A DNA stretch of 64,000 nt. Source: an uncultured Phycicoccus sp. GTDB lineage: Bacteria; Actinomycetota; Actinomycetes; Actinomycetales; Dermatophilaceae. The position numbers and the translations under genes are program-made. Under the pieces are notes generated by a model. The model did no database searches. It worked only from the letters and a program-made list of their open reading frames with translations, and had not been told where the DNA came from. Location: assembly GCF_947495705.1 (NCBI RefSeq), contig NZ_CANLZR010000003.1, forward strand, positions 341,199 to 405,198, read 5' to 3'. This document shows, piece after piece, positions 4,288 to 24,978 of the stretch (positions within the stretch are counted from its first letter, which is position 1; each line of letters starts with the position of its first letter).

Positions 4288-4512
4288 GTCCAGGCTGCGG
4301 GCTGCTACTGGAGAGCGTGCTGGACACTCCCTGGGCGATTCCTGAGACGTTGCTGAATGCCCGTCGCCTCGGCGACGGCATCATCTTCCGATTCCCCGTC
4401 GGGCTGGGCCCGGTGGGGCTACGCTCGCCGCTTATCACGACCGCACGTGAACCGCAGGGGCTGTGGTCTCACCGCGGCGGCCACCGGCCGCTTCGACTCG
4501 AGGAGAACCTGC

Positions 4513-5043
4513 ATGAACTCCCTGCCCCGCAAAGCCTGGGTCGTCACCGGAGCGCTCGGCGCCATCGCCCTGACCGGGTCGGTCGCGGCCTCCGCGACCG
4601 CTGCCGAGACGGCGTCCCGGACCAGCGCGACGAGCAAGGTCGCCACGGCCTCGGCCGCCGTCGAGAGGGCCACCGCGGCCCAGGAGAAGGCCGCGGCCAA
4701 GGCTCGGGCCGCCAAGGCGAAGGCTGCCGAGACCCGCGCCGCGGCGGCGAAGGCCGCCGCCGCCAAGGCCGCCGCGAAGGCCAAGAAGGCCAAGGCCGCC
4801 GCCAAGAAGGCCAAGGCCGCCGAAGCCAAGGCACGGGCCGCCGCCGCGAAGGCAGCGGCAGCGGCGGAGTCGCAGGACGCGACCGTGTCCGCGGCCTCCC
4901 CGGCCTCGGCCGTCACGCCTGCCAGCCCGGCATCGGCGCAGAGCGCGGCTTCCCCGGCGAGCGCCCCGAGCGCCGCCAGTGGCGCCAGTGCCGCATCGCC
5001 GGCCAGCGCGTCCAGCCCCGCTTCCGCGCCCAGCGCCGACTGA
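4513..5043 (+). CDS. Secreted low-complexity Ala/Lys-rich protein with Pro/Ala/Ser C-terminus
   Basis: Signal-peptide-like N-terminus MNSLPRKAWVVTGALGAIALTGSVAASATAAET, then AK-rich and PASA-rich tracts. Confidence 0.65.
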   Translation: MNSLPRKAWVVTGALGAIALTGSVAASATAAETASRTSATSKVATASAAVERATAAQEKAAAKARAAKAKAAETRAAAAKAAAAKAAAKAKKAKAAAKKAKAAEAKARAAAAKAAAAAESQDATVSAASPASAVTPASPASAQSAASPASAPSAASGASAASPASASSPASAPSAD

Positions 5044-5079: not shown

Positions 5080-6300
5080 ATGCGCCGAGGGGACCACGGC
5101 GTGCGCGTCGGTGAGGCGGACGTCCTCGCGCTGCTCACCGGCCCCGACGCCCGCGACGTGCTCGACCTCGCGCTGAACACCGCCGGTGTCGCGGTGACAG
5201 ACCACCGCGTCCACGCCGTCCAGCACCGGCCCGGCGACGGTGTCACCGTGGGCTACCGCGTGTGGGTCAGCGCAGGAGACGCCGACGCCGATGACCGCGT
5301 GGCCGAGGAGTACATGCTGGTCAGCTCGACAGCCGGCCGCGACGTGCCCGACGACAGCCCGGGCGTCGTGCGCCTCGATGGGCCCGACGGTCGCCTCCTC
5401 GTCTGGCGGCACCCCCAGGACCCCGCCCTGCCGGCACTCGGGACGGCCTGCGTTCCCGCGACGGTCGAGCCGCTGGTTCCGGGGGAGGGCCCCGTCACCG
5501 ATCTCGTCCTCGTCGGCTACCGCCCGCTGCGCCGCGCGGTGCTCCGCGTCGAGCGGGGCGACACGACGGCCTACGTCAAGGTGCTGCGACCTGCCGGACG
5601 CGGTGGCGCCCCGGACGTCCTGCACCGCCACTGCCTGCTGGCGGCGGCCGGCGCGCCGGTCCCGCGGGTGCTCGCCTCGAGCGCGGACGGGCTCGTGGTC
5701 CTGGAGCGCGCACCGGGCATCCCGTTGGTCGACGCGGTCGGTGCCGACGACGCCGAGGGGCTCGAGCTCGCCGACCTCCTCGCTGTCCTGGACGCCCTGC
5801 CTGACGCCGTCGTCGACCTGCCACCCCGGCCGGCGTGGTCGCAGCGCGCGAAGGACTATGCGTCCGCCGTCGCGGCTTCCGGTCGATGGGGTGACCGGGC
5901 GACCGCCTTGGGGGCGGCCGTGCGCGAGCGGTCCGCTGTCGTCGACCTCGGGCCGGTCGTGGCGACCCACGGCGACTTCCACGAGGGCCAGCTCACCGTG
6001 CGTCGGGTCGCGGGGCGGTGGCGGGTCGCCGGTCTGCTCGACGTCGACACCGTCGGTCCGGGGCACCGGGTCGACGACCTGGCCTGCCTCGTGGCGCACG
6101 CGCTCGCCCTCGGTCCGGCCGGTGCCGTGGTGGCCGAGCGATGGGAGAACCAGGCCCGCGAGGTCGTCGATCCCGCCGCGCTGGGGGTGCGGACGGCCGG
6201 CGTGCTGCTCTCGCTCGTGGCAGGCGCGGTACATGCGACCGGCAGTGCGGTGTCGGTGGAGGGCCTGCTCGACGCGGCCGAGGCGCGGCTCGACCCCTGA
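5080..6300 (+). CDS. Aminoglycoside phosphotransferase/choline kinase-like family protein
   Basis: THGDFHEGQL catalytic-loop motif and GLLDVDTVGPGHRVDDLACL. Confidence 0.75.
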   Translation: MRRGDHGVRVGEADVLALLTGPDARDVLDLALNTAGVAVTDHRVHAVQHRPGDGVTVGYRVWVSAGDADADDRVAEEYMLVSSTAGRDVPDDSPGVVRLDGPDGRLLVWRHPQDPALPALGTACVPATVEPLVPGEGPVTDLVLVGYRPLRRAVLRVERGDTTAYVKVLRPAGRGGAPDVLHRHCLLAAAGAPVPRVLASSADGLVVLERAPGIPLVDAVGADDAEGLELADLLAVLDALPDAVVDLPPRPAWSQRAKDYASAVAASGRWGDRATALGAAVRERSAVVDLGPVVATHGDFHEGQLTVRRVAGRWRVAGLLDVDTVGPGHRVDDLACLVAHALALGPAGAVVAERWENQAREVVDPAALGVRTAGVLLSLVAGAVHATGSAVSVEGLLDAAEARLDP

Positions 6301-6605: not shown

Positions 6606-7892
6606 ATGCGCGAATATCCGTACTCCTTCCACGTGGCCCTCGACGGGAACGGGCTCAACGGCCTCGAGGGACGGGCCGGCGTGTGCCTCTTCCGGTACGA
6701 CCCGGCCAGCGGCGACCACGCCTACAAGGCGAGGTACTTCGGCGGCGCCTCCGGGGGCCACGCCCCGAGTGTCGACCCGAGTCGGCGCGTGGGCTTCCTC
6801 GGCAACACCGGCCAGCACCTGCTGTTCTACGACCTCGCCACCCTCGACGAGGCCGACCGCATCTCCACGCTGCGCTTCGAGGTACCGGACACGACGGCCA
6901 AGAGCAGCACCCACCTGGTGTGGCTCGACGAGACCGAGTTCGTCACCAGCATCGGCGAGCACCTGTGGAAGTTCGACGTCAACCGACTGGCCAAGGCGGA
7001 CCTCATCGCGCCTCACCAGGTCAAGGTGCCGCACGCGATGAAGCGCACGGCATCCGGCCGCTACATCGTCTACGGGGGGATGGACCACCCCGAGCGAGGT
7101 GAGGCCCGCGAGGTCGGGATCCTCGACACCCACAGCGGGGAGGTCCGGCACGTCACGCTGCCCACGACCTGCTGGCACCTCGTCTGCCACCCCGTGCTCG
7201 ACGTCTTCTATGCCATCAGCTTCCGCGTGCACCCTGCCGATCGCAGCGACTACGGCCACTGGGGGACGGCGTGGCTGCGCCAGTACGCCTTCGAGGTCGA
7301 CGCGGAGCACGGCCAGGTGCTGCGCCACTGGGCGGCAGACCGGGATGTGCCGGCGCACATCAACTCCGACGTGACGATCTCGGACTCCGAGCTGATCTTC
7401 TGCACGGGGGGCAGCCAGACGGTCGTCCTCGTGGACCTCGCGACGATGACGCAGCACCGGCTCATCGACGAGAACCCCGGGCCGCTCGGCTCGTGGGAGT
7501 TCCCGCGGCAGTCGCTCAACACGGTCGGCGAGAGCTTCGTCCGCGGCAACTTCTTCACCAACTCCCACCTCTACGGCGAGGCCCTGCGAGTCAGCCGCGG
7601 CTCGCTCATCGACGGCATCTATGCCTGCCAGCTCTCCGCGGACCAGACCCTGCTCTTCACCGCCAACCGTGGGCAGAACCACATCACCGTCTACGACTAC
7701 CCGTCCCTGCGCTTGCGCGACCGGATCGTCATGCCTGACCTGCACGAGCTGGACGACGGCCTGGCCGAATGGGCGGACCCCCGGCTGGGGTTCCACCACT
7801 CCTACCTCGTCAGCCCCGAGCCGGCCGTCCGCGCCGAGCCCGCTGCCCGCCCCGACCCCGACCCCTCACGCCCAGGAGGCCGCCATGGCTGA
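6606..7892 (+). CDS. Beta-propeller-like protein with conserved-looking His residues
   Basis: 429 aa; repeated YD/DL blade-like motifs; overlaps next start by 8 nt. Confidence 0.6.
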   Translation: MREYPYSFHVALDGNGLNGLEGRAGVCLFRYDPASGDHAYKARYFGGASGGHAPSVDPSRRVGFLGNTGQHLLFYDLATLDEADRISTLRFEVPDTTAKSSTHLVWLDETEFVTSIGEHLWKFDVNRLAKADLIAPHQVKVPHAMKRTASGRYIVYGGMDHPERGEAREVGILDTHSGEVRHVTLPTTCWHLVCHPVLDVFYAISFRVHPADRSDYGHWGTAWLRQYAFEVDAEHGQVLRHWAADRDVPAHINSDVTISDSELIFCTGGSQTVVLVDLATMTQHRLIDENPGPLGSWEFPRQSLNTVGESFVRGNFFTNSHLYGEALRVSRGSLIDGIYACQLSADQTLLFTANRGQNHITVYDYPSLRLRDRIVMPDLHELDDGLAEWADPRLGFHHSYLVSPEPAVRAEPAARPDPDPSRPGGRHG

Positions 7893-8307
7893 CTTCTCCG
7901 TCGACACCTCGGTCATCGGCCCCGTCGTCAGCGACGTCACCGCCGACGTCACGAGCACCCTGGCCGGCCTCGACGACATGAGCCTCACCCTGGCTGGAGG
8001 TACGACGACGACACTGGCCGGTGGGACGACGACGACGCTCGCCGGCGAGAACACCGTGCACTCGGACGCGACGATCACCCTTACGCCGGTGACGACGACC
8101 TCGAGCGTGGACCTCAAGCCGGTGGCGCTCGACTCGTGCGTCCGGCTCGAGCTCGCGCCGGCACCGCCCACCGAGGTGCACTCGCCCTACGAGCAGCGCT
8201 GGGCCTGGTCGGTCATGGGGTTCGAGCTCTTCGCCCTCACCGTCCAGGGCTCGATGTCGACGCACGTCCGCCCGGAGCCGCACGGCGCCACGGTGATCGA
8301 GCTCTGA
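7885..8307 (+). CDS. Small protein with LAGGTTTT repeats (hypothetical)
   Basis: ATG with AGGAGG Shine-Dalgarno; 24-nt tandem repeat encodes LAGGTTTT. Confidence 0.6.
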   Translation: MADFSVDTSVIGPVVSDVTADVTSTLAGLDDMSLTLAGGTTTTLAGGTTTTLAGENTVHSDATITLTPVTTTSSVDLKPVALDSCVRLELAPAPPTEVHSPYEQRWAWSVMGFELFALTVQGSMSTHVRPEPHGATVIEL

Positions 8308-8313
8308 CCGGCC

Positions 8314-8967
8314 ATGGCCACCGCGCGACGCTCGAAGCGATCAGCCCCACCGACCGACGCCATCGTCCTCAGTGGCCCACCGACGAGCCTGCACGCGACG
8401 GTCACCGTCGAGAACACCTCCGAGGGACGTCTCGCGGTCCGCGGCGCCACGCTCCACCTCGACGACGGGACGCCGGTACCCGGGGTCGCGGGGGCGGTCA
8501 TCAGCGCCGGCTCCACCGCGAGCCTTCCGGTCCGGGTATCGCTCGACCCGACGACGGCACCGGGCACGTATGCCGCGGAACTCGAGGTCAGCGGGGCACG
8601 CCGGTCCGCCGTCATCCGGGTCCAGACCCGGCTGGCCCTGTCGGTGAGCCCCGACGAGGTGCTGGCTGTCGCCGGGCGGCATCCGATCGATCTCGACGTC
8701 GCCAACGACGGCAACGTCGCCATCCCCCTCGCCCGCCGGGTGGTCGCCCCCACCGACGACGGGCGAGGGGAGCCCGGCCCCGAGGTCACCCTCGAGGTCG
8801 ACAACCCGACGACGCTCGAGCCCGGCGACCAGGTGACCCTCTCGGGCCGGCTGGACGTCCCCCACGGCCTCGACCCGGCCCGCCGGCACGCCGCCCGGGT
8901 TCCGGTCGGCGTCGCCGACCTCGTCGTCCTCGTGCTCCCTCACACAGAAACGGAGACCCCGTCATGA
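8314..8967 (+). CDS. Ig-like domain protein (hypothetical)
   Basis: Beta-rich VTVENTSEGRLAV... and DVANDGNVAIPL modules; no signal peptide; ATGA overlap with next gene. Confidence 0.6.
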   Translation: MATARRSKRSAPPTDAIVLSGPPTSLHATVTVENTSEGRLAVRGATLHLDDGTPVPGVAGAVISAGSTASLPVRVSLDPTTAPGTYAAELEVSGARRSAVIRVQTRLALSVSPDEVLAVAGRHPIDLDVANDGNVAIPLARRVVAPTDDGRGEPGPEVTLEVDNPTTLEPGDQVTLSGRLDVPHGLDPARRHAARVPVGVADLVVLVLPHTETETPS

Positions 8968-9647
8968 CCACCAGTGCCCCCGATCTCATCACGACCTTGA
9001 CCACCGGCTGGGCCGACGCGGTCCAGCAGTGGTCCGACCAGTCCCAGGCCATGTGGGAGCAATGGGGAGTGGCCCCGTGGGCGCCCCCGGCCGGCCCCCG
9101 GCCCTCCGGCCGTCGAGCAGGAGGGTCGCGTCCGCGGCACCGGCCCGGCCATGAGCACCACCCGGGGCACGAGCGGCACGACCACGGCTGCGAGTGCGAG
9201 ACCGACGTGTGTGCGTGCTGCGTCCCCGACGCCGACATCGTCCTGCACGCCCGGGCGGGGGAGCGGCGCGTCATCCCGTTCGTCCTGCACAACCGGTGGC
9301 GCCGGGACCGAGAGGTCGGCGTCGAGGTCGGGCCCTGGCACCGCTGCAGTGGTGCGGAGCTGAACATCCAGGCCGAGGTCGACGGCGAGGGGTTCACCCT
9401 GGGGCCGTGCGAGGACCGGGTCGTGCGGCTCCTCCTGACCGTTGCCAGTGCGGACGAGGCGGACGAGGCGGCCGAGGCGGAGGAGAAGGGCGAGCCGCCG
9501 GTCCGGTTCGCCGACGTCGGTCAGTGCTCGAGCGCGTACGCCGATGTGCGGTTCGAGGGGTGCGCGCGCCCCCAGCGGGTCGCCGTCGTCGTCGAGCCCG
9601 CCGCGTGCAACGCGGTCGAGGTGGGGTGCGACTGCGGGTGCTGCTGA
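8964..9647 (+). CDS. Hypothetical protein: Trp-rich helix, His/Cys-rich linker, Ig-like domain, CDCGCC tail
   Basis: HEHHPGHERHDHGCECETDVCACC linker; translationally coupled to preceding gene. Confidence 0.6.
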   Translation: MTTSAPDLITTLTTGWADAVQQWSDQSQAMWEQWGVAPWAPPAGPRPSGRRAGGSRPRHRPGHEHHPGHERHDHGCECETDVCACCVPDADIVLHARAGERRVIPFVLHNRWRRDREVGVEVGPWHRCSGAELNIQAEVDGEGFTLGPCEDRVVRLLLTVASADEADEAAEAEEKGEPPVRFADVGQCSSAYADVRFEGCARPQRVAVVVEPAACNAVEVGCDCGCC

Positions 9648-9696
9648 CGAGGACGGTGGAGATGCTTCCTGCACGGACGAGCGGAGAGGACCAGCG

Positions 9697-10455
9697 ATGA
9701 ATTCACGCACGACGGATCCCGAGGAGAGCCTCGCCCGGCTGGGCGAACTGGCGCGTCGAGCGCTCCAGGCGCAGGCCGACGCCGCCAAGCAGTCCATCGA
9801 GCTCGGCCGGGCGGTCCTCTCGCCCGGCGCGGACCCGGGTGCCACCGGCCGCGCCTGGGCGGAAGCGGTGGGTCGGGAGGGAGCGCGCTACTGGCGTGAG
9901 GTCGGGACCCTGGGAATGGACGTGGCCGGGCAGGTCGTCACCATCGGCAGCCGCAGCGTCGCCCGCGTGCTCGGCGAGACCCAGGCAGCGGTCGACCGCA
10001 CCCGCCGGCAGCGCTCGTCGGGTGGCTCGGCCGGCTCCGCGGGCGCGGCCGCTCACGACGACGCTGCCGAGCCGGCCACTGGCCGCCCGGTCGCCGAGCG
10101 CCGGTCAGCGGCCGCGAACGCGGCCGCGAGCCCGGCGCCGCACGTCGCCGTCGGCCTCCGTGCGGCACCCGGAGGGACCGCCACGGGGACGGTCGTGCTG
10201 GCCAACCAGCACGCCCGGGCGCGACGGGTCGTCCTGACGCCGGGCGAGGTCCTGCGGGAGCCGGCCCGCGACGTCGCGCTCCCGGTGCGGGTCGACCCGG
10301 CCGGGGTGACGATCCCCGCGCACGGCGAGCAGACCGTGACCGTCGAGGTCGCCGTTCCCGAGGACGTGGTCCGCTCCGGTGAGCGGTACGTCGGGGAGAT
10401 CCAGGTCACCGGGGGCGTCGAGGCGGTCGTCGACGTGGTGATCGACCTGGACTGA
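9697..10455 (+). CDS. Phasin-like helical N-terminus fused to Ig-like domain (hypothetical)
   Basis: GGAGAGG upstream of ATG; helical ...LARRALQAQADAAKQSIELGRAV... then beta-rich C-terminus. Confidence 0.6.
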   Translation: MNSRTTDPEESLARLGELARRALQAQADAAKQSIELGRAVLSPGADPGATGRAWAEAVGREGARYWREVGTLGMDVAGQVVTIGSRSVARVLGETQAAVDRTRRQRSSGGSAGSAGAAAHDDAAEPATGRPVAERRSAAANAAASPAPHVAVGLRAAPGGTATGTVVLANQHARARRVVLTPGEVLREPARDVALPVRVDPAGVTIPAHGEQTVTVEVAVPEDVVRSGERYVGEIQVTGGVEAVVDVVIDLD

Positions 10456-11587
10456 GTGCGGACCCCGGGGCGCGGGCGGGTACTCCACCGGTTCCGGCAG
10501 CCTGCTCGTCCACGCAGTCGACCGGCCTCGGGATGAGCGGCCGGGCGGACCGCACCTCCGGCGACATCCGCAGTCCCTCGCGGACCCAGCGGGGCAGTGA
10601 CTCGTCCAGCGCGAGCCACGCCAGGGACGCCGCCACGGCGGTCCGCGCCGGTCGAGGCGCGTAGCCCAGGGCCTCGGCACGCGCCGAGGTGTACCAGTAG
10701 TAGCGACCCACGGTTCGCGCCTCGTCGGTCGTCGACAAGGGGGCGGTACCGGTCACGCGGCCCCAGGCCTCGGCCGCGGCCGAGGCGAGCCACGCGGAGG
10801 ACGAGGGCGCCTCCAGGAAGGGGCCCGGGAGGCCGGCGAGGTCGGCGACGAGGGAGTGCAGCTCTCGCCAGGTGAGGTCCTCGCCGCCGAGGAGGTACCG
10901 CTGCCCCGGCTCGCCGCGCTCGAGGAGAGCAAGATGTCCGGCGCCGACGTCCCGCGCATCGACGACGTTGCAGCCGCCCGGGTAGGTGCTGCGCGTCGGG
11001 TCGAGGAGGTAGCGCAGGACGATGGCGTTGCTCGGGCCGAGACGCGAGAACGGCCCCCCGAGGACGATGGTCGGCAGGGCCAGGACGAGGTGGAGGCCTT
11101 GGCGGTCGGCCTCGGCCAGCGCGACCTGCTCCTGTCGGACCTTGCTCGCGTAGTAGGCCGGCGCCGGTTCGTCGCCCAGCCGGTCCGCCTCCGTCCGGGT
11201 CGCGGGCTCGGCGCTGGACCCTCGGGTGACGGCTGAGCTGGTGACGACGACCCGTCCCAGGCCCGCGGCCGCTGCGGCCTCGACGACGGTGCGGGTGCCG
11301 TCGACGTTGACCCGGACCACCTCGTCGGCCTTGTCCTTCCCGTAGCTGTAGACAGCGGCGCAGTGGACCAGCGCGTCGGCGCCGTCGAGGGCGCGGGCGA
11401 GCCCGTGCGGGTCGCCCAGGTCGGTTCCGCACGTGGAGAGGGGGCCGGTCGAACCGAGCGCACGGATTCGCTCGGGCAGGGCGCGACCGGGCCGGCACAC
11501 GGCGACGACGTCGTGCCCGGCGTCGAGGGCCTCGCGCGCGACGTGGTAGCCCACCAGGCCGGTCACCCCGGTGACAGCGACCCTCAT
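10406..11587 (-). CDS. NAD-dependent epimerase/dehydratase (extended SDR, HpnA/dihydroflavonol reductase-like)
   Basis: VTGVTGLVGYHVA Rossmann motif, YYASK catalytic motif; ATGA overlap with upstream gene. Confidence 0.8.
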   Translation of the reverse strand: MRVAVTGVTGLVGYHVAREALDAGHDVVAVCRPGRALPERIRALGSTGPLSTCGTDLGDPHGLARALDGADALVHCAAVYSYGKDKADEVVRVNVDGTRTVVEAAAAAGLGRVVVTSSAVTRGSSAEPATRTEADRLGDEPAPAYYASKVRQEQVALAEADRQGLHLVLALPTIVLGGPFSRLGPSNAIVLRYLLDPTRSTYPGGCNVVDARDVGAGHLALLERGEPGQRYLLGGEDLTWRELHSLVADLAGLPGPFLEAPSSSAWLASAAAEAWGRVTGTAPLSTTDEARTVGRYYWYTSARAEALGYAPRPARTAVAASLAWLALDESLPRWVREGLRMSPEVRSARPLIPRPVDCVDEQAAGTGGVPARAPGSALSPGRSPRRRPPRRPR

Positions 11588-13575
11588 CGCCGGTCCCGCC
11601 CGCCCCGCACGTGCCGGAAGCCGTGGACGTCGACCTCGTCGGCCTCGGGGGTCCTGCTGCTGCGCTCCCCGGTGCTTCCCACCGGGTCGGGGTCGAGGCC
11701 CGACCGCTCGCTCACCCAGTCCTGGGCGGCGGTGAGCAGGAGCTCGACGGACCGGGTGAGCAGGGGCTCGTCGGGGTCCGGAGGCGGGCGCCCGATCCGG
11801 AACCCGCGGCCCTCGAAGCGCGCCTCGAGGTTGTCGAAGGTCGTCGTGAAGAACCGCCGGTAGGCCTCCTCGAGGAGGGGGTTGCGCACCTCCGGCACGA
11901 GGGTCAGGTCGAGCCCCTGCCACGATGGTGGGAGGGTGAACAGCTGCCGTCCCCGGACGGTGGCCAGGGTGCCGGTCCCGGTGCGGGTGAACGTCAGCGA
12001 CCCGTCGTCGTGAGCCGCCGAGCTGTTGGGGCTGCGGACGGTCCGCCAGAGCAGCCGGTGCTCGTCCGGGCGGCGCTCGACGAGCTCGATCTTGCACACG
12101 TCGATCGGCTCGCCGCCCCACGCCGCGAGGTAGTTCGGTTGCGGCAGGTACAGGTTGCGCTCGGCCTGCCGGACGCGGGTGGTCCACTCTCCGGCCGGGG
12201 CGGGCCCGAGCTCGACCCGTCGTCCGCCGAGGTAGTCGGCCATCAGGGCGATGCCCTCAGCCACGTCGACCCGGGCGACGAACTCGTCGAAGTCGGCGGC
12301 GATCTCGCGTCCGACCTCGAAGACCGTGGCGCCGTCGACGAGCGTCCACCGCATTTCGCCGTCCGCAGGCGCGGGGAGCCCGGCGAGGGCGTCGTCGATG
12401 ACGGCGAGGAACGTCGGCAGGTCGTCGTAGTCCTCGTTCGGGTGGGCCGCGGGCTCGAAGCCCAGCGGGACGACGCGGTGGGGGACGCGGTCCTTGTCGA
12501 GGTTGACCGACCAGGCGCGGTCGGCCACCGAGGCGGTGGCCACCCCGGCGAGGAGCCCGACGAGCGCGCCCTGCCCGACAGGGTCCGCGGCCGCGGCGAC
12601 GGCCGGGGTCAGCACCGCCCGGACCGCCGCCATGACCGGGTCGTCAGCCGTCGCCCCGTCGTCCGGGCCGCCGATGCTCGCCGCGAGCACTCGCTCCAGG
12701 CGCCGGTCGACGGTGGCCAGCCGGGCGGCCTCGACGGCGAGCGGGTGGGGGCGGGTTACGTCGGCGAACCGGGTGACGTCACCCCGGATCCGCCCACGTG
12801 GCGGCCCGATCTCGGAGAGGGCGCGTTCGACGAGCCGGGAGGCCCCCCAGTCCACGCCGAGCAGCGACGCCAAGGCCGTGTCGGCGAGCAGCGCGTCGCT
12901 CGTGACCACCACGGTGGCCGTGTCACTCGGATGGGCCAGCCGCGCCCCGTCGGCGCCGCCGCTCGTGGCAGTGGCGTCGAGGACGCACAGCGACGGGGCG
13001 AGGTGGCGAACGACATCGACCACGACGTCCGCGGGCTCGGCGCCGCCCACCTCGGGTGCCACGCCGGTCAGCGCGTCGAGGCATCCGGCATAGGTCTCGA
13101 GCAGGTCGGTGACGGCACGACCGACGACGACCCGGGTGCTAGCGCCGGCCCACCGCCGCGAGACGGGTCGTCCGTCGAGGACGCTCGACGGCGGTCCCGG
13201 GGCGGGGATCGTGTCGTCACCGAGGTCGGCGACCTCGTAGGCGCGCCCGGAGGCGGTGCGCCCCGTCAGGCCGGCCAGGTGGGCGAGGCCGCTCACCGAG
13301 CGATGGCCGCGGTCTCGGTCCTGGGCCGACAGCGAGGACCCGAGGGTCACGTCGGTGCAGCCCGCGTCGATGAGCGCATCGACCACGTGCTCGAGAACCT
13401 CGCGCGAAACGGGCGTCGGTTGGTGCAGCCGGGCACAGACGACGGCGCGGCCGGTGCGCGCGCCGAGCAGGTCATTGAGAGCTGGACGCAGGGTCGTGTC
13501 GAGTGACCCGCCATCCAGGCCGCGCAGCACGACGCCGCGGCCGGTCCGGTCGAGTCGCTCGTCCGTGCGCCTCAT
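11584..13575 (-). CDS. DUF362-like N-terminal protein with additional C-terminal domain
   Basis: Long coding frame; start refined to MRRTDERLDR; coupled to the epimerase. Confidence 0.55.
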   Translation of the reverse strand: MRRTDERLDRTGRGVVLRGLDGGSLDTTLRPALNDLLGARTGRAVVCARLHQPTPVSREVLEHVVDALIDAGCTDVTLGSSLSAQDRDRGHRSVSGLAHLAGLTGRTASGRAYEVADLGDDTIPAPGPPSSVLDGRPVSRRWAGASTRVVVGRAVTDLLETYAGCLDALTGVAPEVGGAEPADVVVDVVRHLAPSLCVLDATATSGGADGARLAHPSDTATVVVTSDALLADTALASLLGVDWGASRLVERALSEIGPPRGRIRGDVTRFADVTRPHPLAVEAARLATVDRRLERVLAASIGGPDDGATADDPVMAAVRAVLTPAVAAAADPVGQGALVGLLAGVATASVADRAWSVNLDKDRVPHRVVPLGFEPAAHPNEDYDDLPTFLAVIDDALAGLPAPADGEMRWTLVDGATVFEVGREIAADFDEFVARVDVAEGIALMADYLGGRRVELGPAPAGEWTTRVRQAERNLYLPQPNYLAAWGGEPIDVCKIELVERRPDEHRLLWRTVRSPNSSAAHDDGSLTFTRTGTGTLATVRGRQLFTLPPSWQGLDLTLVPEVRNPLLEEAYRRFFTTTFDNLEARFEGRGFRIGRPPPDPDEPLLTRSVELLLTAAQDWVSERSGLDPDPVGSTGERSSRTPEADEVDVHGFRHVRGGRDRR

Positions 13576-13805: not shown

Positions 13806-13881
13806 TGGTGGGCCCCGTGGGGCTCGAACCCACAACCTACGGATTAAAAGTCCGCAGCTCTACCGATTGAGCTAGAGGCCC
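13806..13881 (-). tRNA. tRNA-Lys (TTT)
   Basis: Cloverleaf GGGCCTCTAGCTCAATCGGTAGAGC...CTTTTAA anticodon loop...GGTTCGAGCCC; encoded CCA. Confidence 0.96.
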
Positions 13882-13955
13882 GCGCGGCCCCGTGGTGAGG
13901 CGGGTCCGCGACGGCCGTCAGTATGTCGCACCGGCGCCAGCGTGGGCGCCACGGG

Positions 13956-14001
13956 GATGTGGGTGAAAACCGTCGGATAGGCGATGGTCTTCACCCACAT
14001 C
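13956..14001. repeat. 12-bp perfect inverted repeat, extendable imperfectly inward
   Basis: GATGTGGGTGAA (13956-13967) and TTCACCCACATC (13990-14001). Confidence 0.8.
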
Positions 14002-14028
14002 TCGATGCGAGCAGGTGTGGTTGCGGGG

Positions 14029-14322
14029 TCAGGCGGCGCAGTCGCGGCAGAGGTTGGTGCCGGGCTTGGACTCCTGCGACCGGTGGACGAGCAGGAAGCA
14101 GCCCATGCACGAGAACTCGTCGGCCTGGCGCGGCACGACGTGCACCTCGAGGGAGAGGTCGGACAGGTCGGCGCCGGGCAGCGTGTGCCCGTCGGTGGCC
14201 TCGCTGTCCTCCTCGAGGAGGTCGATCGGCGTGCGTGAGCGGGCGGCGTCGAGCTCGACGAGGGAGTCGCTCTTGTCCTCTTCGCCCTCACGGACCCGGG
14301 GAGCGTCGTAGTCAGTTGCCAT
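14029..14322 (-). CDS. DUF4193 family protein
   Basis: MATDYDAPR...; C-terminal FSCMGCFLLVHRSQ...CRDCAA. Confidence 0.85.
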   Translation of the reverse strand: MATDYDAPRVREGEEDKSDSLVELDAARSRTPIDLLEEDSEATDGHTLPGADLSDLSLEVHVVPRQADEFSCMGCFLLVHRSQESKPGTNLCRDCAA

Positions 14323-14566
14323 GGTCGGCACCTTCCGTCGTGGTGTGCGGGTCGTTGCCGACCCCGGGGCCCCTGAGTATGTCGCGGTCGAGGGGATTCG
14401 TCAAAGGTTTGTCTAACTTGCGGCCCAGGAGCGACCGGTGCTGCGTGATGCGTGCTTCTGGGCGTACCGGTCCGCGACGCTCATGCCCGGTCAACGCCGG
14501 GAGGTGCGGGGTTGTGCCCGGTCGAGGCTGGGAGAACCCTGTGAGGCCGCCGGGGCGGCTCGCGGG

Positions 14567-18242: not shown

Positions 18243-18866
18243 GTGGGCTTTCGCCTCACCCCCCAGGACACCTCGTTCCCCGAGCTGTACGCCGCCTCGG
18301 CGCAGCAGCTGGTCGAGGGTGCCCGCGAGCTGACGGCGCTGCTCGGCGCGGACCACGACGAGCGCCAGGAGATCCTCCGCCGGGCCCACGACATCGAGGC
18401 CGCTGCCGCCGACGCCACCCGCGACATCGTCCGCAAGGTGCACGGGTCCTTCGTCACCCCGTTCGACCGCTCCGACATGCACGGCCTCGCCGTGGCCCTC
18501 GACGAGTGCGTCGACCTCGTCGTCGCCGCGGTCGACCTCATCGTGCTGTACCGCGTCGACGACCTCCCGCCCCGCGCCGCCAAGCAGGTCGAGATCATCG
18601 CGCGGATGGCCGAGGTCACTGCCGACGCGATGCCGCGGCTGCGGTCGATGAAGGAGCTCAACGGCTACTGGGTCGAGATCACCCGGCTCGAGAACCGGGC
18701 GAACAAGCAGTACCGGCGCATGCTGGGCGACCTGTTCGCGGCGAAGAAGCCCGACCCCGTCGCCCTGATGAAGCACAAGGACGTCATCGACGCCCTCGAG
18801 GCCGCGGCGAACGGGTTCGAGCAGGTGGCGCTGAAGGTCGAGGCGATCACCGTCCGGGAGTCCTGA
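18243..18866 (+). CDS. DUF47 / PhoU-like protein, partner of Pit
   Basis: GTG start; PhoU-like helical sequence adjacent to Pit transporter. Confidence 0.88.
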   Translation: MGFRLTPQDTSFPELYAASAQQLVEGARELTALLGADHDERQEILRRAHDIEAAAADATRDIVRKVHGSFVTPFDRSDMHGLAVALDECVDLVVAAVDLIVLYRVDDLPPRAAKQVEIIARMAEVTADAMPRLRSMKELNGYWVEITRLENRANKQYRRMLGDLFAAKKPDPVALMKHKDVIDALEAAANGFEQVALKVEAITVRES

Positions 18867-18872
18867 CCGGCC

Positions 18873-19865
18873 GTGGACTGGTGGCCCGTCGCCCTCGTCG
18901 TCGTCCTCGCGATGGGGTTCACGTACACGAACGGCTTCCACGACGCCGCGAACGCCATCGCCACCTCGGTCTCGACCCGGGCGCTGACCCCCCGGATCGC
19001 GCTGCTGCTGGCCGCAGTGATGAACCTCGTGGGGGCCTTCGCCGGGATGCGGGTGGCCCAGACGATCAACGACATCGTCGTCGTCCCCGACGGCGCCACC
19101 GGGCTCGCCCTGTGCGCCGGCGCCTTCGTCGGCGCGACCGTCTGGAACCTGCTGACGTGGTGGCGGGGGCTGCCGTCCTCGTCGTCGCACGCCCTGATCG
19201 GGGGGCTCGGCGGGGCCGCGCTCGCCGCCGGCGCCACCGTGCGCTGGGGCGCGGTGCGCGACAACGTCGCCATCCCGATGATCGTGTCCCCGCTCCTCGG
19301 GCTCGCCGGCGGCTTCCTCGTCATGACCGCCATCCTGTGGCTGTTCCGGCGCTCCGCTCCCGGGCCGACCGCGCGCGGGTTCCGCTACGCCCAGACGGTG
19401 TCGGCGGCCGCGATGGCGTTCGGGCACGGGATGCAGGACGCGTCGAAGACGGCCGGGGTGGTCGTGCTCGCCCTCGTCGCCTCCGGGCACCAGGACCCCG
19501 CGGACCTGGCGGTGCCGCTCTGGGTGCTCGCCCTGGCCGCGGTCATGCTGAGCCTCGGCACGTACGCGGGCGGCTGGCGGATCATCCGCACGCTCGGGCG
19601 CGGCATCATCCACATCGACCCGCCGCAGGGGTTCGCCGCCGAGGCGACGGCCGCGACCGTGCTCTACGCCGCGACGGCCACCGGAGCCCCGATCTCGACG
19701 ACGCACGCCATCACCTCGGCCATCGCCGGGGTCGGGGCGACCCGCTCGGCCAAGGCGGTGCGCTGGGACGTCGCGCGGTCCATCGCGTTCGCGTGGGTGC
19801 TGACGTTCCCGGGCGCCGGCCTCGCGGCCGCGCTCGTGTACGGCGCCGTCGCGCTCGTCGTCTAG
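18873..19865 (+). CDS. pit: Inorganic phosphate transporter, PiT family
   Basis: GFHDAANAIATSVSTRALTP and GHGMQDASKTAGVV motifs. Confidence 0.93.
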   Translation: MDWWPVALVVVLAMGFTYTNGFHDAANAIATSVSTRALTPRIALLLAAVMNLVGAFAGMRVAQTINDIVVVPDGATGLALCAGAFVGATVWNLLTWWRGLPSSSSHALIGGLGGAALAAGATVRWGAVRDNVAIPMIVSPLLGLAGGFLVMTAILWLFRRSAPGPTARGFRYAQTVSAAAMAFGHGMQDASKTAGVVVLALVASGHQDPADLAVPLWVLALAAVMLSLGTYAGGWRIIRTLGRGIIHIDPPQGFAAEATAATVLYAATATGAPISTTHAITSAIAGVGATRSAKAVRWDVARSIAFAWVLTFPGAGLAAALVYGAVALVV

Positions 19866-19886
19866 GGCCCAGCGGGCCCGGGCCGG

Positions 19887-20663
19887 TCAGCCGAAGCGGC
19901 CCGAGATGTAGTCCTCGGTGGCCTTCTCGGTGGGGTTGCTGAAGATGCGCTGGGTCTCGCCGATCTCGACGAGCCGGCCGGGCTCGCCGGTCGCTTTGAG
20001 GTTGAAGAACGCCGTCTGGTCCGAGACGCGGGCCGCCTGCTGCATGTTGTGCGTGACGATGACGATCGTGTACTCGGACTTCAGGTCGTTGATGAGGTCC
20101 TCGATGGCCAGCGTCGAGATCGGGTCGAGGGCCGAACAGGGCTCGTCCATGAGCAGCACCTGCGGGTTGACCGCGATGGCGCGGGCGATGCACAGCCGCT
20201 GCTGCTGGCCGCCCGACAGGCCGGCCCCGGGCTTGTCGAGCCGGTCCTTGACCTCGGTCCACAGGTTGGCGCCGCGCAGCGACTGCTCGACGACCTCGTC
20301 GAGGACGGACTTCTTCTTGACCCCGTTGAGGCGCAGCCCGGCCGCCACGTTGTCGCGGATCGACATCGTCGGGAACGGGTTGGGCCGCTGGAAGACCATG
20401 CCGACGGTGCGGCGCACGGCCACCGGGTCCATCGACGACGCGTAGAGGTCCTGGTCGTCGAGCATGACCGAGCCCTCGACCCGCCCGCCCGGGATGACCT
20501 CGTGCATCCGGTTCAGGGTGCGGAGCACCGTCGACTTGCCGCAGCCGGACGGGCCGATGAACGCCGTGACGGAGCGGGGCTCCACGGTCATCGTCACGCC
20601 CTCGACGGCCTTGAAGTCGCCGTAGTAGATGTCGAGGTCCTTGACGTCGATGCGCTTGGCCAT
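19887..20663 (-). CDS. pstB: Phosphate ABC transporter ATP-binding protein
   Basis: [48 protein letters not shown]. Confidence 0.97.
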
Positions 20664-20714
20664 GGGTTCAGTGTCTCTTTTCGTCCCGGGGTGGTCGGGG
20701 TGGTCGGGAGTGGG

Positions 20715-21641
20715 TCAGCCCTTGACCTTGCTGAAGCGGCCGACGAAGCGGCCCAGCAGGTTGAGCATGAACACGAGGAGGATCAGGGTGAGCGAGGCGC
20801 CCCAGACCCGGTCGAGGGCCGGCTGCAGGGCCTCGGTGCGGTCCTGGTTGATCATCGTGGGCAGCGTCGCCATGAGCCCGTCGAACAGGTCGGTGGCGAT
20901 GACCTTCGTGTACGGCCCGAGGATGATCAGCGGTGCCGTCTCACCCATGACGCGGGCGAGGCCGAGCAGGACGCCGGTGACGATGCCCGAGAACGCGGTG
21001 GGCACGACGATCTTCATGATCGTCTTCCACTTCGGCACCCCGAGCGCGTACGACGCCTCGCGCAGCTCGTTCGGCACGAGCTTGAGCATCTCCTCCGTGG
21101 ACCGCACGATCGTCGGGATCATGAGCATCGCGAGGGCCAGGGTCACGGCGAACGCGACGCGCTGGAAGCCGAGCGTCGTCACCCACAGGGCGTAGATGAA
21201 CAGGCCCGCGACGATCGACGGGATGCCGGTGAGGATGTCGACCATGAAGGACACGGTCCGCGCCAGCCGGCCGCGGCCGTACTCGACGAGGTAGACGGCG
21301 GTGAGGACGCCGACCGGCACCGACATCGCCGCCGTGACCGCGGCCTGGATGAGCGTGCCCTGGATGGCGTGCACCGCGCCCCCGCCGACCCGCCGCGAGG
21401 TGATGCCGGACTGGCTGTTGGTCCACCACACCGAGTCGACGAGCATGTGGCCGCCCTTGACCAGGGTGGAGCCGAGGATCCAGACGAGCGGCACGACGGC
21501 GATCCCGAAGGCGAGCCACATGACGACGCGGGCGGTGACGTCCTTGACGGCGCGCCCCCCGGACTTCTCGCCGAACGCACTGGGGGTCGGGACGCCGGCC
21601 GCGGGCGGTGCTGCGGCGTGGTCGACCTGGGCGCTGCTCAT
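20715..21641 (-). CDS. pstA: Phosphate ABC transporter permease PstA
   Basis: Permease motifs, order pstS-C-A-B; start MSSAQVDH overlaps pstC stop. Confidence 0.95.
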   Translation of the reverse strand: MSSAQVDHAAAPPAAGVPTPSAFGEKSGGRAVKDVTARVVMWLAFGIAVVPLVWILGSTLVKGGHMLVDSVWWTNSQSGITSRRVGGGAVHAIQGTLIQAAVTAAMSVPVGVLTAVYLVEYGRGRLARTVSFMVDILTGIPSIVAGLFIYALWVTTLGFQRVAFAVTLALAMLMIPTIVRSTEEMLKLVPNELREASYALGVPKWKTIMKIVVPTAFSGIVTGVLLGLARVMGETAPLIILGPYTKVIATDLFDGLMATLPTMINQDRTEALQPALDRVWGASLTLILLVFMLNLLGRFVGRFSKVKG

Positions 21642-22639
21642 TCGGTGAAGGCCTTCCTGCGATCGATGACGATGCGGGCGGTCGCGTTGACGACGAAGGT
21701 CACGACGAACAGGACGAGGCCGGCCGCGATGTAGGCGCCGGTCTTCTGCGGGGTGTCGAACTCGCCGGCGCCCTGGGCGATCCGCGAGGCGAAGGTCGAG
21801 CCGCCGTTGAAGATCGAGAAGCTCCAGTCCGCGTTCGCGCTCAGCGTCGACAGGAGGATGAGGACCGCGAGGGTCTCGCCGAGCGCACGGCCGAGGCCGA
21901 GCATCGCGGCGCTGATGACCCCGGGCTTGCCGTAGGGCAGGACCGCGACCCGGATCATCTCCCACCGCGTCGCCCCGAGCGCGAGCGCGCCCTCCTTGTG
22001 CGTCGTCGGCACCTGCGCGAAGACCTCGCGGGAGATGGCCGTGACGATCGGCAGGATCATGATCGCGAGGATCATGCCGGCGAAGGCGAGAGTGCTCTTG
22101 GCGCTGGTGCCCTGGTCCTCGAAGACCGGCAGCCACCCGAGCGCGCCGTCGATCCCGGAGAGCACCGGCTGGAAGTACTGGCCCGCGATGTTCAGACCCC
22201 AGAACCCGTAGACGATCGAGGGGACCGCAGCGAGGAGGTCGATGGTCGAGGCCGCGGGCTTGGAGAGCCACGGCGGCGCGTACTGGGTGATGAAGAGGGC
22301 GACCGCGACCCCGAGCGGGACCGCGATGATCATCGCGATGACCGAGGTGATGAGGGTGCCCCAGGCGAGCTCGAGGATGCCGAAGCGGGGGTTGGCTCCG
22401 CTGGGGCTCCACTCCCGCGACAGGAGGAAGTTCGCCTCGTTCTTCAGCAGCGACGGCACGGCCTGCCACAGGAGGAACACCCCGACGAGGGTGACGAGGA
22501 CGACGATGAGGATGCCCGAGGTGGTGGCGAGGCCGCCGAAGATCCGGTCGCCGAGGCGGCCGGTGGAGGCCCGGTCGCCGCCGAGGGGGTGCCTCGGGTC
22601 CTCGTCGACCGTCGAGCGGCCGGTCATGGAGGTGCTCAC
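21638..22639 (-). CDS. pstC: Phosphate ABC transporter permease PstC
   Basis: Permease motifs; operon position. Confidence 0.95.
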   Translation of the reverse strand: MSTSMTGRSTVDEDPRHPLGGDRASTGRLGDRIFGGLATTSGILIVVLVTLVGVFLLWQAVPSLLKNEANFLLSREWSPSGANPRFGILELAWGTLITSVIAMIIAVPLGVAVALFITQYAPPWLSKPAASTIDLLAAVPSIVYGFWGLNIAGQYFQPVLSGIDGALGWLPVFEDQGTSAKSTLAFAGMILAIMILPIVTAISREVFAQVPTTHKEGALALGATRWEMIRVAVLPYGKPGVISAAMLGLGRALGETLAVLILLSTLSANADWSFSIFNGGSTFASRIAQGAGEFDTPQKTGAYIAAGLVLFVVTFVVNATARIVIDRRKAFTE

Positions 22640-22678
22640 GTCGTCCTCGGGGGTGTCGGGGATCTTGGTCGTACCGAC

Positions 22679-22705
22679 GGGGCGGGCCGGTTCGCGGCCC
22701 GCCCC
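22679..22705 (-). terminator. Stem-loop between pstS and pstC (attenuator/processing stem)
   Basis: GGGGCGGGCCG-gttcg-CGGCCCGCCCC, 11-bp perfect stem. Confidence 0.6.
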
Positions 22706-22767
22706 GATGCGGTGTCCGTGGGCGCCGGAGCGCCGGGACGGTGGGCGCCCGTGCGGGCGCCGAGCGG

Positions 22768-23877
22768 TCAGGAGATCGCGTCGATGGCCGTCGTGACCTT
22801 CTCCTCGACCGAGCTCGGGAGCGGTGCGTACCCGATCTCCTCGAGGCCCTGCTGGACCTCCGGGGAGGCCATGTGCGTGAGGAAGGCCTTGACCTTCGTC
22901 GCGGTCTCGGCGTCAGCGTACTGGGAGCACACGATCTCGTAGGTGACGAGGAGGATCGGGTAGGCGCCGGCCTCCTGGGTCGCGTAGTCGAGGGTGAGGC
23001 GCAGGTCGTTGCCCTCGCCGTCGCTGGCGGCGGCCTCGACGGCCTTGCCGACGGTCTCGCCGGTCAGCTCGACCGCGCCGCCGCCGTTGTCGATCTTGGC
23101 GATGCCGAGGTCGTTGTCCTTGGCGTAGCTCCACTCGACGTAGGTGACGCCACCCTCGGTGGACTTCACGCCCTCGGACACCCCGGAGGACTTCTCCTTG
23201 CCCTCACCGGAGGCGGGCCAGGCCTTCGCCGGGTCGTAGCTCCACGCGTCGCCACCGGCAGCCTTGAGGTACTTCGTGAAGTTCTCGGTCGTCCCCGACT
23301 CGTCGGAGCGGAAGAAGACCTTGATGTCGGTGGCGGGGAGCTCGACGCCGGCGTTCACCGCCGCGATCTTCGGGTCGTTCCACGTCGTGATCTTGCCGTC
23401 GAAGATCTCCGCGGCCACGTCCGGGGTGAGCGTCAGGTCGTCGACCCCCGGCAGGTTGTAGGAGATGGCGATCGGCCCGGTGACCATCGGGATGTTCCAG
23501 GCGGGAGAGCCGCAGGTCTCGGCGGCCGCGTCGGTCTCGACGATGCCGTCCTTCTCCTCGGTCTTCAGGGCCGAGTCGGACCCGGCGAAGTCGACCTGCC
23601 CGGCGATGAACTGCTTGATGCCCGTGCCGGAGCCCGTCGGGTTGTAGTTGACGGTGGCGCCGGGGCACATCTCGTTGTACGTGGCGGCGGCCTCCTCGAA
23701 CGCGTTCTTCTGGGCCGAGGAGCCCTCGGCGTTCAGGGTGCCCTCGAAGCAGGCGACGTCGCCGGCGCCGCCGGTGGCGCCGCCGCTGCCCGAGTTGTCG
23801 TCCGAGCCGCAGCCGGCGAGGGCGAGGGAACCGACCAGGGCGAGGCCAGCGAACTGGCCGAAACGGAGGTTCTTCAC
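22768..23877 (-). CDS. pstS: Phosphate-binding lipoprotein PstS
   Basis: GTG start, lipobox LALAGCG, NAEGSSAQKNAF, GSGTGIKQFIAGQVDFAGSD. Confidence 0.96.
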   Translation of the reverse strand: MKNLRFGQFAGLALVGSLALAGCGSDDNSGSGGATGGAGDVACFEGTLNAEGSSAQKNAFEEAAATYNEMCPGATVNYNPTGSGTGIKQFIAGQVDFAGSDSALKTEEKDGIVETDAAAETCGSPAWNIPMVTGPIAISYNLPGVDDLTLTPDVAAEIFDGKITTWNDPKIAAVNAGVELPATDIKVFFRSDESGTTENFTKYLKAAGGDAWSYDPAKAWPASGEGKEKSSGVSEGVKSTEGGVTYVEWSYAKDNDLGIAKIDNGGGAVELTGETVGKAVEAAASDGEGNDLRLTLDYATQEAGAYPILLVTYEIVCSQYADAETATKVKAFLTHMASPEVQQGLEEIGYAPLPSSVEEKVTTAIDAIS

Positions 23878-23950
23878 AGGTGTACCTCTCGAAAAAGGAA
23901 CGAAGCGATGGCGTCGGGCACCGGTGGCCGACGCCTAGGACGGTATGGAG

Positions 23951-23994
23951 GCCGGGTGACGCCGTGACCCGTGCCGGGTGAACGCCGCGTGAAC
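23951..23994 (-). promoter_or_regulatory. PHO-box-like array upstream of pstS
   Basis: Minus strand GTTCACGCGGC-GTTCACCCGGC adjacent 11-mers plus two degenerate units in 11-nt phase. Confidence 0.75.
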
Positions 23995-24022
23995 GGCGTC
24001 CGAGCATTGCCCCACCGGACGG

Positions 24023-24967
24023 TCAGGGGCAGTGGCGCTCGACGGCGACGACGCGGGCCCCGGCGCCCGTGCCGGCCACGTGGCAGACCAGCGCCTCGCC
24101 CTTGTCGAACGTGCCGGCGGCGGCCGCGGCCAGGACGCTGCGGTCGGCGGCCCCGGCCTCCCCCGCGACCCCGGCGAGGACGTCGACGAGCGCCGGCAGC
24201 ACCGGCCCGTGCGAGCAGACGGCGGTGGGGCGCCCCTTCTCGAGGACGCGCTGCAGGTGGTGGACCGCCCGCCCCGGGTCGTCGGCGAAGCCCTCCTCGG
24301 ACAGGCCGGGCCGGGTCCGGAGCCGGACCCCGGCCTCGTCGACGAACGGCTGGACGGTGGCGGTGCAGCGCTTCGAGGGGGAGGAGACGACCCGGTCCAC
24401 GCCGTAGGCCGCCAGGACCGGCCCCAGCGCCACCGCCCGGGCCCGGCCGGCCGCGTCGAGGGGGCGTTCGGTGTCGTCCGACCCCTTCCACGAGCCTCGG
24501 CCCACGGCGCGGGCGTGCCGGACGAGCACGAGCGGCCACGTCGCGAGCAGCCCCGCCTGGTGCCAGCGCACGAGGGCCAGCAGCTGGTCCTGGTCGCGGG
24601 CGTAGTCGAGGCGGTCGTGGGCGGTGCGCGGGTCGAGCCACTCGACGTCGTCGATCTCGTTGACGAGGCGGCCGTCGCCCCCGGTGACCTGGGCGGCCCA
24701 GTACCGCACGACCTTGTCGCCGGGGACGCCGTCCTTCTCGAGGACGGTGTACCGCGCCTGCGGCAGGGGGACCCCCAGCCGGACGACGAGCCCGGTCTCC
24801 TCGAACGTCTCGCGGACGGCGGCGACGGGCCACTCCTCCGCCGGGTCGAGCTTGCCCTTGGCCCAGGACCAGTCGTCGTAGCGCGGCCGGTGCACGAGCG
24901 CAACCTGCAGCACGTGACCGTGGACCCGCCACGGCACCGTCCCGGCAGCGGGGATCGTCGTCGGCAT
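24023..24967 (-). CDS. mutT1: NUDIX hydrolase fused to histidine phosphatase (MutT1-like)
   Basis: Nudix box region GKLDPAEEWPVAAVRETFEETG; VLVRHARAVGR histidine-phosphatase motif. Confidence 0.88.
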   Translation of the reverse strand: MPTTIPAAGTVPWRVHGHVLQVALVHRPRYDDWSWAKGKLDPAEEWPVAAVRETFEETGLVVRLGVPLPQARYTVLEKDGVPGDKVVRYWAAQVTGGDGRLVNEIDDVEWLDPRTAHDRLDYARDQDQLLALVRWHQAGLLATWPLVLVRHARAVGRGSWKGSDDTERPLDAAGRARAVALGPVLAAYGVDRVVSSPSKRCTATVQPFVDEAGVRLRTRPGLSEEGFADDPGRAVHHLQRVLEKGRPTAVCSHGPVLPALVDVLAGVAGEAGAADRSVLAAAAAGTFDKGEALVCHVAGTGAGARVVAVERHCP

Positions 24968-24978
24968 GGGAGCGGTCG

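Follow-up and report, generated by a model that had tools for sequence, protein, structure and literature searches.

A conserved set of beta-propeller, Ig-like and phasin-like genes in an uncultured Phycicoccus and its occurrence across phyla

What do five tightly packed genes of an uncultured Phycicoccus sp. encode together, and do they form one system? The genes, P1 to P5, are co-directional open reading frames (ORFs) on the + strand at positions 6606-10455 of a 64,000-nt stretch of contig NZ_CANLZR010000003.1; this whole stretch is called the window. They had been taken, from the sequence alone, for an undescribed operon encoding a propeller, a repeat protein and three immunoglobulin (Ig)-like proteins, perhaps serving a hydrophobic or polymer inclusion. 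In this study, comparison with related loci showed that the gene set is linked, conserved, co-occurring and spread across phyla, and the locus looks like a horizontally spread, uncharacterised cell system.

Gene content, linkage and distribution

All five ORFs and the junctions described for them were present at the places given in the original prediction: P1 and P2 overlap by 8 nt, P2 and P3 are separated by 6 nt, P3 and P4 share an ATGA overlap, and GAGAGGA stands ahead of the P5 ATG. The limits 6606-10455 proved too narrow, since two further conserved members were found on the other strand at 10406-13575, a short-chain dehydrogenase/reductase (SDR) and a fusion protein. The members of the locus are:

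6606..7892, + strand: P1, 428 amino acids (aa), beta-propeller of seven blades, six of which carry invariant His at their inner strands (AlphaFold, alignment)
7885..8307, + strand: P2, 140 aa, repeat protein rich in Thr and Gly, conserved in its C-terminal domain (ortholog alignment)
8314..8967, + strand: P3, 217 aa, probably two Ig-like domains (alignment, weak profile matches)
8964..9647, + strand: P4, amphipathic helix at 8-35, Cys/His-rich linker, Ig sandwich at 88-210 and Cys tail (AlphaFold, Foldseek)
9697..10455, + strand: P5, phasin-like helical domain and C-terminal Ig/Fn3-like domain (alignment, profiles)
10406..11590, - strand: SDR of the NAD-dependent epimerase / 3beta-HSD type (Pfam Epimerase 2.5e-23), tail to tail with P5
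11584..13575, - strand: DUF362-SRPBCC fusion of about 663 aa (weak Pfam DUF362 and Polyketide_cyc2 matches), overlapping the SDR start

P1 was compared at 24 distinct loci, the window included. Orthology was assigned from blast and profile matches, ORF calling being crude in this DNA of 73% GC and the strand sometimes wrong. P2 to P5 are real genes: orthologues of each recur at 12 to 15 further loci with the gene order unchanged (19-73% identity). The claim of an undescribed conserved operon held. No Pfam or NCBIfam family was matched above cut-off by P1-P5, and the genes are linked across loci. A gene-neighbourhood search, suggested with the original prediction, found the propeller linked to its partner genes: P2 adjoins P1 in 18 of the 24 loci, and SDR orthologues adjoin it in 16 other loci. 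The order P2-P3-P4-P5 is kept in Intrasporangiaceae and in one genome from another family of the order, and a Pseudonocardiales contig carries P1-P4 up to its end. Two genomes of a remote actinobacterial class contain P2-P5, P1, the SDR and the fusion in differing orientations.

The whole set was also observed inside 9 kb of a gammaproteobacterial contig (L068), where profiles built without the remote rows gave 4.5e-199 for P1, 1.7e-161 for the DUF362-SRPBCC protein, 2.2e-16 for P3, 3.9e-11 for P5 and 4.8e-5 for P2. The gene in the P4 position of this contig gave no match to the P4 profile; its assignment relies on position, on the helix-Cys-Ig layout and on cross-matches, all weak, to the profiles of P5 and P3. 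L068 clusters in the P1 tree with the two remote actinobacteria (100/99), a grouping that makes transfer of the locus between phyla likely.

Relatives of P1 (about 52-83% identity) occur in few genomes. They were found in 5 of 78 kin genomes and 4 of 396 genomes drawn from the phylum (host counted in both), and in none of 11 congeners. A search of about 85,000 species genomes, sensitive to close relatives alone, gave 18 loci. Of the 396 genomes, the four with P1 are precisely those that have P4 and those that have the full-length fusion; the chance of two independent four-genome sets coinciding is about 1e-9. Loci of Kribbella, Mycobacterium and Streptomyces carry P1 without P2-P4. In every actinobacterial locus with enough flank, those of the three genera included, P1 has the SDR and the fusion for company.

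The propeller and its partner proteins

That P1 is a propeller is backed by an AlphaFold model of seven blades (pLDDT 82, pTM 0.85), in which residues 292-329 form a helical insertion. Among the 24 sequences, 114 P1 residues are invariant, and nine of them are His. Seven of these nine (H52, H103, H143, H191, H251, H397 and H398) lie at most 2 residues from the start of an innermost strand, on six different blades, a hub placement with P=1.6e-4 against the other invariant residues, as read from sequence position and predicted strands and not from measured geometry. The predicted protein therefore combines seven blades with seven His from six blades and one adjacent pair. This ring on the propeller hub of the predicted structure stays invariant down to about 52% identity and may bind metal.

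Among the 15 aligned orthologues of P2, the conserved part is the C-terminal segment of about 60 residues; the TTTLAGG repeat noted earlier is present in the window as about two tandem copies and is variable in the family. P3, with 15 orthologues aligned, gave weak matches to NEW3 and choice-of-anchor D and to Ig-type domains in the PDB, and probably consists of two Ig-like domains. In the AlphaFold model of P4, a helix at 8-35 is followed by a Cys/His-rich linker of low confidence and by a confidently modelled Ig sandwich, which resembles PapD/MSP/ASH-type Ig domains in Foldseek. The hydrophobic moment of the helix is above that of almost all shuffles. Of the 227 aa of P4, 14 are Cys and 10 are His; the alignment contains invariant Cys, and HxH-rich linkers are found in relatives. 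P5 (14 orthologues aligned) matched fn3_5 with E=1.8e-4, under the cut-off, and in the two remote actinobacteria its C-terminus ends in a putative CxxC-type zinc ribbon. The earlier count of three Ig-like proteins is supported by AlphaFold for P4 and by weak profile matches only for P3 and P5. Sequence searches of solved structures yielded nothing useful for P1, P2 and P4 and weak Ig-type matches for P3 and P5. In agreement with the absence of signal peptides noted before, no N-terminal hydrophobic signal, signal-peptide-like stretch or transmembrane stretch was found in P1-P5.

The helices of P5 are phasin-like, as had been proposed, and are homologous to stand-alone proteins that occupy the same slot directly after P1 in Kribbella (3e-19) and Mycobacterium (1.5e-18), with a weak match to that of Streptomyces (0.0011). 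The Mycobacterium protein matches Phasin_2 with E=0.0011, which is below the cut-off, and no Phasin_2 match over the cut-off was found in 21 of 22 genomes. Because a helical protein adjoins P1 even in loci without P2-P4, the helix component belongs with the enzymes.

For the fusion, 14 sequences were aligned; in the 396-genome sample, other genomes match its DUF362 half only, and weakly. In L068 (4104-6614) the DUF362-SRPBCC protein opens with a long Lys-rich, histone H1-like tail. Such tails also occur in granule-segregation proteins such as PhaM and PhaF. The 3′ ends of the SDR gene and P5 overlap tail to tail by 50 nt (10406-10455), and similar overlaps were seen in L006, L009, L012 and L028. 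In Pseudoalteromonas, P1 lies near SRPBCC proteins, one of them a relative of the fusion's C-terminal half. The cluster there (L021 2480-17194, and L069) comprises P1, SRPBCC-type proteins, non-ribosomal peptide synthetases (NRPS; one of 3170 aa), an acyl-CoA dehydrogenase, a class-III aminotransferase and an aldehyde dehydrogenase. Such a setting is what would be expected if P1 is an enzyme.

Genomic setting

One further feature gives the context of the locus without being a member of it:

13806..13881, - strand: tRNA-Lys(TTT) (ARAGORN)

The gene order common with seven congeners stops at this tRNA gene; the locus therefore lies in a variable, probably acquired region. In the genus, the tRNA-Lys beside a DUF4193-like gene (13806-14331; L059-L065) marks a site of variable insertion, with gene order common on one side and differing on the other, and with an integrase-like gene in L059. 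As for attachment repeats, neither long direct repeats nor a second tRNA 3′ end were found; an intact integrative element at tRNA-Lys was rejected on these grounds, and the claim is limited to a variable integration site. No relatives of the locus were found in IMG/VR, PLSDB or INPHARED, and phage or plasmid cargo was rejected on the lack of matches in these viral, plasmid and phage collections. An anti-phage defence system was likewise rejected, as PADLOC gave no match for P1-P5 or the fusion protein. No Pfam or NCBIfam match of P1-P5 points to a spore-coat locus.

Upstream of the operon, the window contains an ORF (4357-5043) for an Ala/Lys-rich, probably secreted protein with a Pro-Ala-Ser repeat tail, and an APH-family phosphotransferase (5080-6300) that is absent near P1 in other loci. 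At 18243-27300, a PhoU-like protein, a Pit-type transporter, a PstB-type ATPase, a phosphate-binding protein and then a polyphosphate-kinase-like ORF were recognised by eye in the translated sequences.

Possible function and comparison with known systems

The explanation that we tentatively prefer, as quite possible, is a horizontally spread cytoplasmic system that combines a coat or scaffold of helix and Ig proteins with an enzyme module, one that depends on metal and has a hydrophobic molecule as its substrate. The enzyme module would consist of P1, the SDR and the DUF362-SRPBCC protein. The SRPBCC domain may hold the hydrophobic substrate and hand it over, and the SDR may carry out a redox step on it. 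In the coat or scaffold module, the amphipathic helix of P4 and the phasin-like helices of P5 would bind either the hydrophobic product or the enzyme body, and both proteins would display their Ig-like domains; P2 and P3 may complete the assembly, and the Cys/His-rich P4 may bind or supply metal. This explanation is favoured by the presence of P2-P5 beside P1 at distant loci and by the invariant His ring on the hub. Also in its favour are the matching genome sets of P1, P4 and the fusion, the helical protein next to P1 in loci without P2-P4, the likeness of the hub to CuZ and to the Fe site of carotenoid/stilbene oxygenases, the surroundings of P1 in Pseudoalteromonas and the predicted structure of P4. 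A more specific form of it appears unlikely as a whole: a new cytoplasmic body, transferred as a unit from phylum to phylum, with an Ig-displaying, phasin-like coat around a hydrophobic product and the propeller that makes it, a metalloenzyme of a new multi-histidine class and possibly polynuclear.

Several points weigh against the enzyme-and-coat explanation. The Foldseek matches of P1 are generic (TM about 0.5, 9-14% identity), and propellers frequently serve as binding scaffolds. The placement of the hub His is read from sequence position and predicted strands. Clusters of the CuZ type are assembled in the periplasm, whereas P1 has no export signal. On the helix side, Phasin_2 was matched solely under the cut-off (best 19.5 bits versus 24.9), and amphipathic helices occur in coiled coils too.

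One alternative is a scaffold of protein only, in which PapD/MSP-like Ig proteins and helices would surround P1 as a filament, shell or enzyme complex in the cytoplasm and no core of lipid or polymer is present. The Ig-like and low-complexity proteins without export signals are consistent with it, as are the Streptomyces carrier and one Pseudoalteromonas carrier that lack both polyhydroxyalkanoate (PHA) synthase and WS/DGAT; the conserved amphipathic and phasin-like helices and the SRPBCC domains, however, suggest a hydrophobic partner, and we regard this alternative as doubtful, though with a real chance. It is distinctly unlikely that P1 is a ligand- or cofactor-binding propeller, comparable to NirF for heme d1 or BtuG for cobalamin, in a locus that senses or stores the ligand. 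The best Foldseek matches do include the quinohemoprotein amine dehydrogenase beta chain, NirN, NirF and BtuG-type proteins, but their generic character counts against this use of them too, and the presence of SDR and SRPBCC partners, together with the NRPS setting, speaks for chemistry. Storage or detoxification of copper, zinc or iron by P4 and the P1 His ring would agree with the invariance of the ring and with the Cys/His content and HxH-rich linkers of P4; it leaves the SDR, the DUF362-SRPBCC protein and the phasin-like helices unexplained, no metal transporter or regulator was recognised beside the operon, and we consider it improbable.

A granule locus for PHA or neutral lipid is similarly improbable. 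Phasin-like helices, WS/DGAT genes in the host and PHA synthase in some carriers speak for it, but PHA synthase (PF07167) is absent from the host genome (100% complete) and in all from 12 of 18 carriers, the other 6 having it, and this weakens a PHA-granule locus and a PHA inclusion. WS/DGAT (PF03007) does not track the locus: within the genus, carriers (the host among them) and non-carriers alike have it, and it is missing in four carriers. The gammaproteobacterium with the full set lacks it. A coat locus for triacylglycerol or wax ester was rejected for want of association. That the genes are chance neighbours without joint function is hardly credible; tight junctions are common in compact genomes, but the identical genome sets and the cross-phylum linkage refute it. 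Of the original prediction, the operon, its linkage and the phasin-like helices stand, a polymer inclusion in the form of PHA is not supported, and the SDR, the fusion and the His ring had been overlooked.

The value of the locus lies in a compact, testable unit of five families without a curated model and two identifiable partners travelling together across phyla. Should the Ig and helix proteins form a coat, Ig domains and phasin-like helices would have a role in the cytoplasm of cells that lack PHA synthase. The combination and the five families fit no system found; the search covered open-access literature only, in which nothing relevant on this gene combination was seen, and an earlier description elsewhere is possible.

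The single parts do have known counterparts. P4 shares its fold with PapD/MSP/ASH-type proteins, of which MSP is a self-assembling cytoplasmic Ig protein, but it has no sequence relation to them and adds the Cys/His-rich linker and the amphipathic helix. Phasins (PF09361 and relatives) are likewise small amphipathic helical proteins, and the stand-alone relative weakly matches Phasin_2; P5 differs in falling under the curated cut-off, in its fused Ig domain and in the lack of PHA synthase in most carriers. The N-terminal half of the fusion belongs to DUF362, which shares a Pfam clan, CL0471, with the lactate racemase family (PMC11770544), but here it is fused to SRPBCC, and the full-length form is confined in the sample to P1-bearing genomes.

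Carotenoid/stilbene oxygenases, the RPE65 family, hold Fe on four hub His next to a helix-loop lid (PMC6097328). P1 is like them in its seven blades, hub His, helical element above the propeller and likely hydrophobic substrates, but it has six to seven hub His instead of four, and RPE65 was not among the Pfam matches of 23 P1 members. In N2O reductase (NosZ), six of the seven blades together supply seven His as ligands of the CuZ site, including one adjacent pair (PMC11573801), the same numbers as in P1. P1 differs in having no NosZ family match in NCBIfam or Pfam, no CuA cupredoxin domain and no export signal; its chain stops after the propeller, and its His-free blade is placed otherwise relative to the HH pair. 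The resemblance is one of arrangement only. If the hub His of P1 bind metal, the protein would represent a new metalloenzyme family with a ligand count so far known from one famous enzyme.

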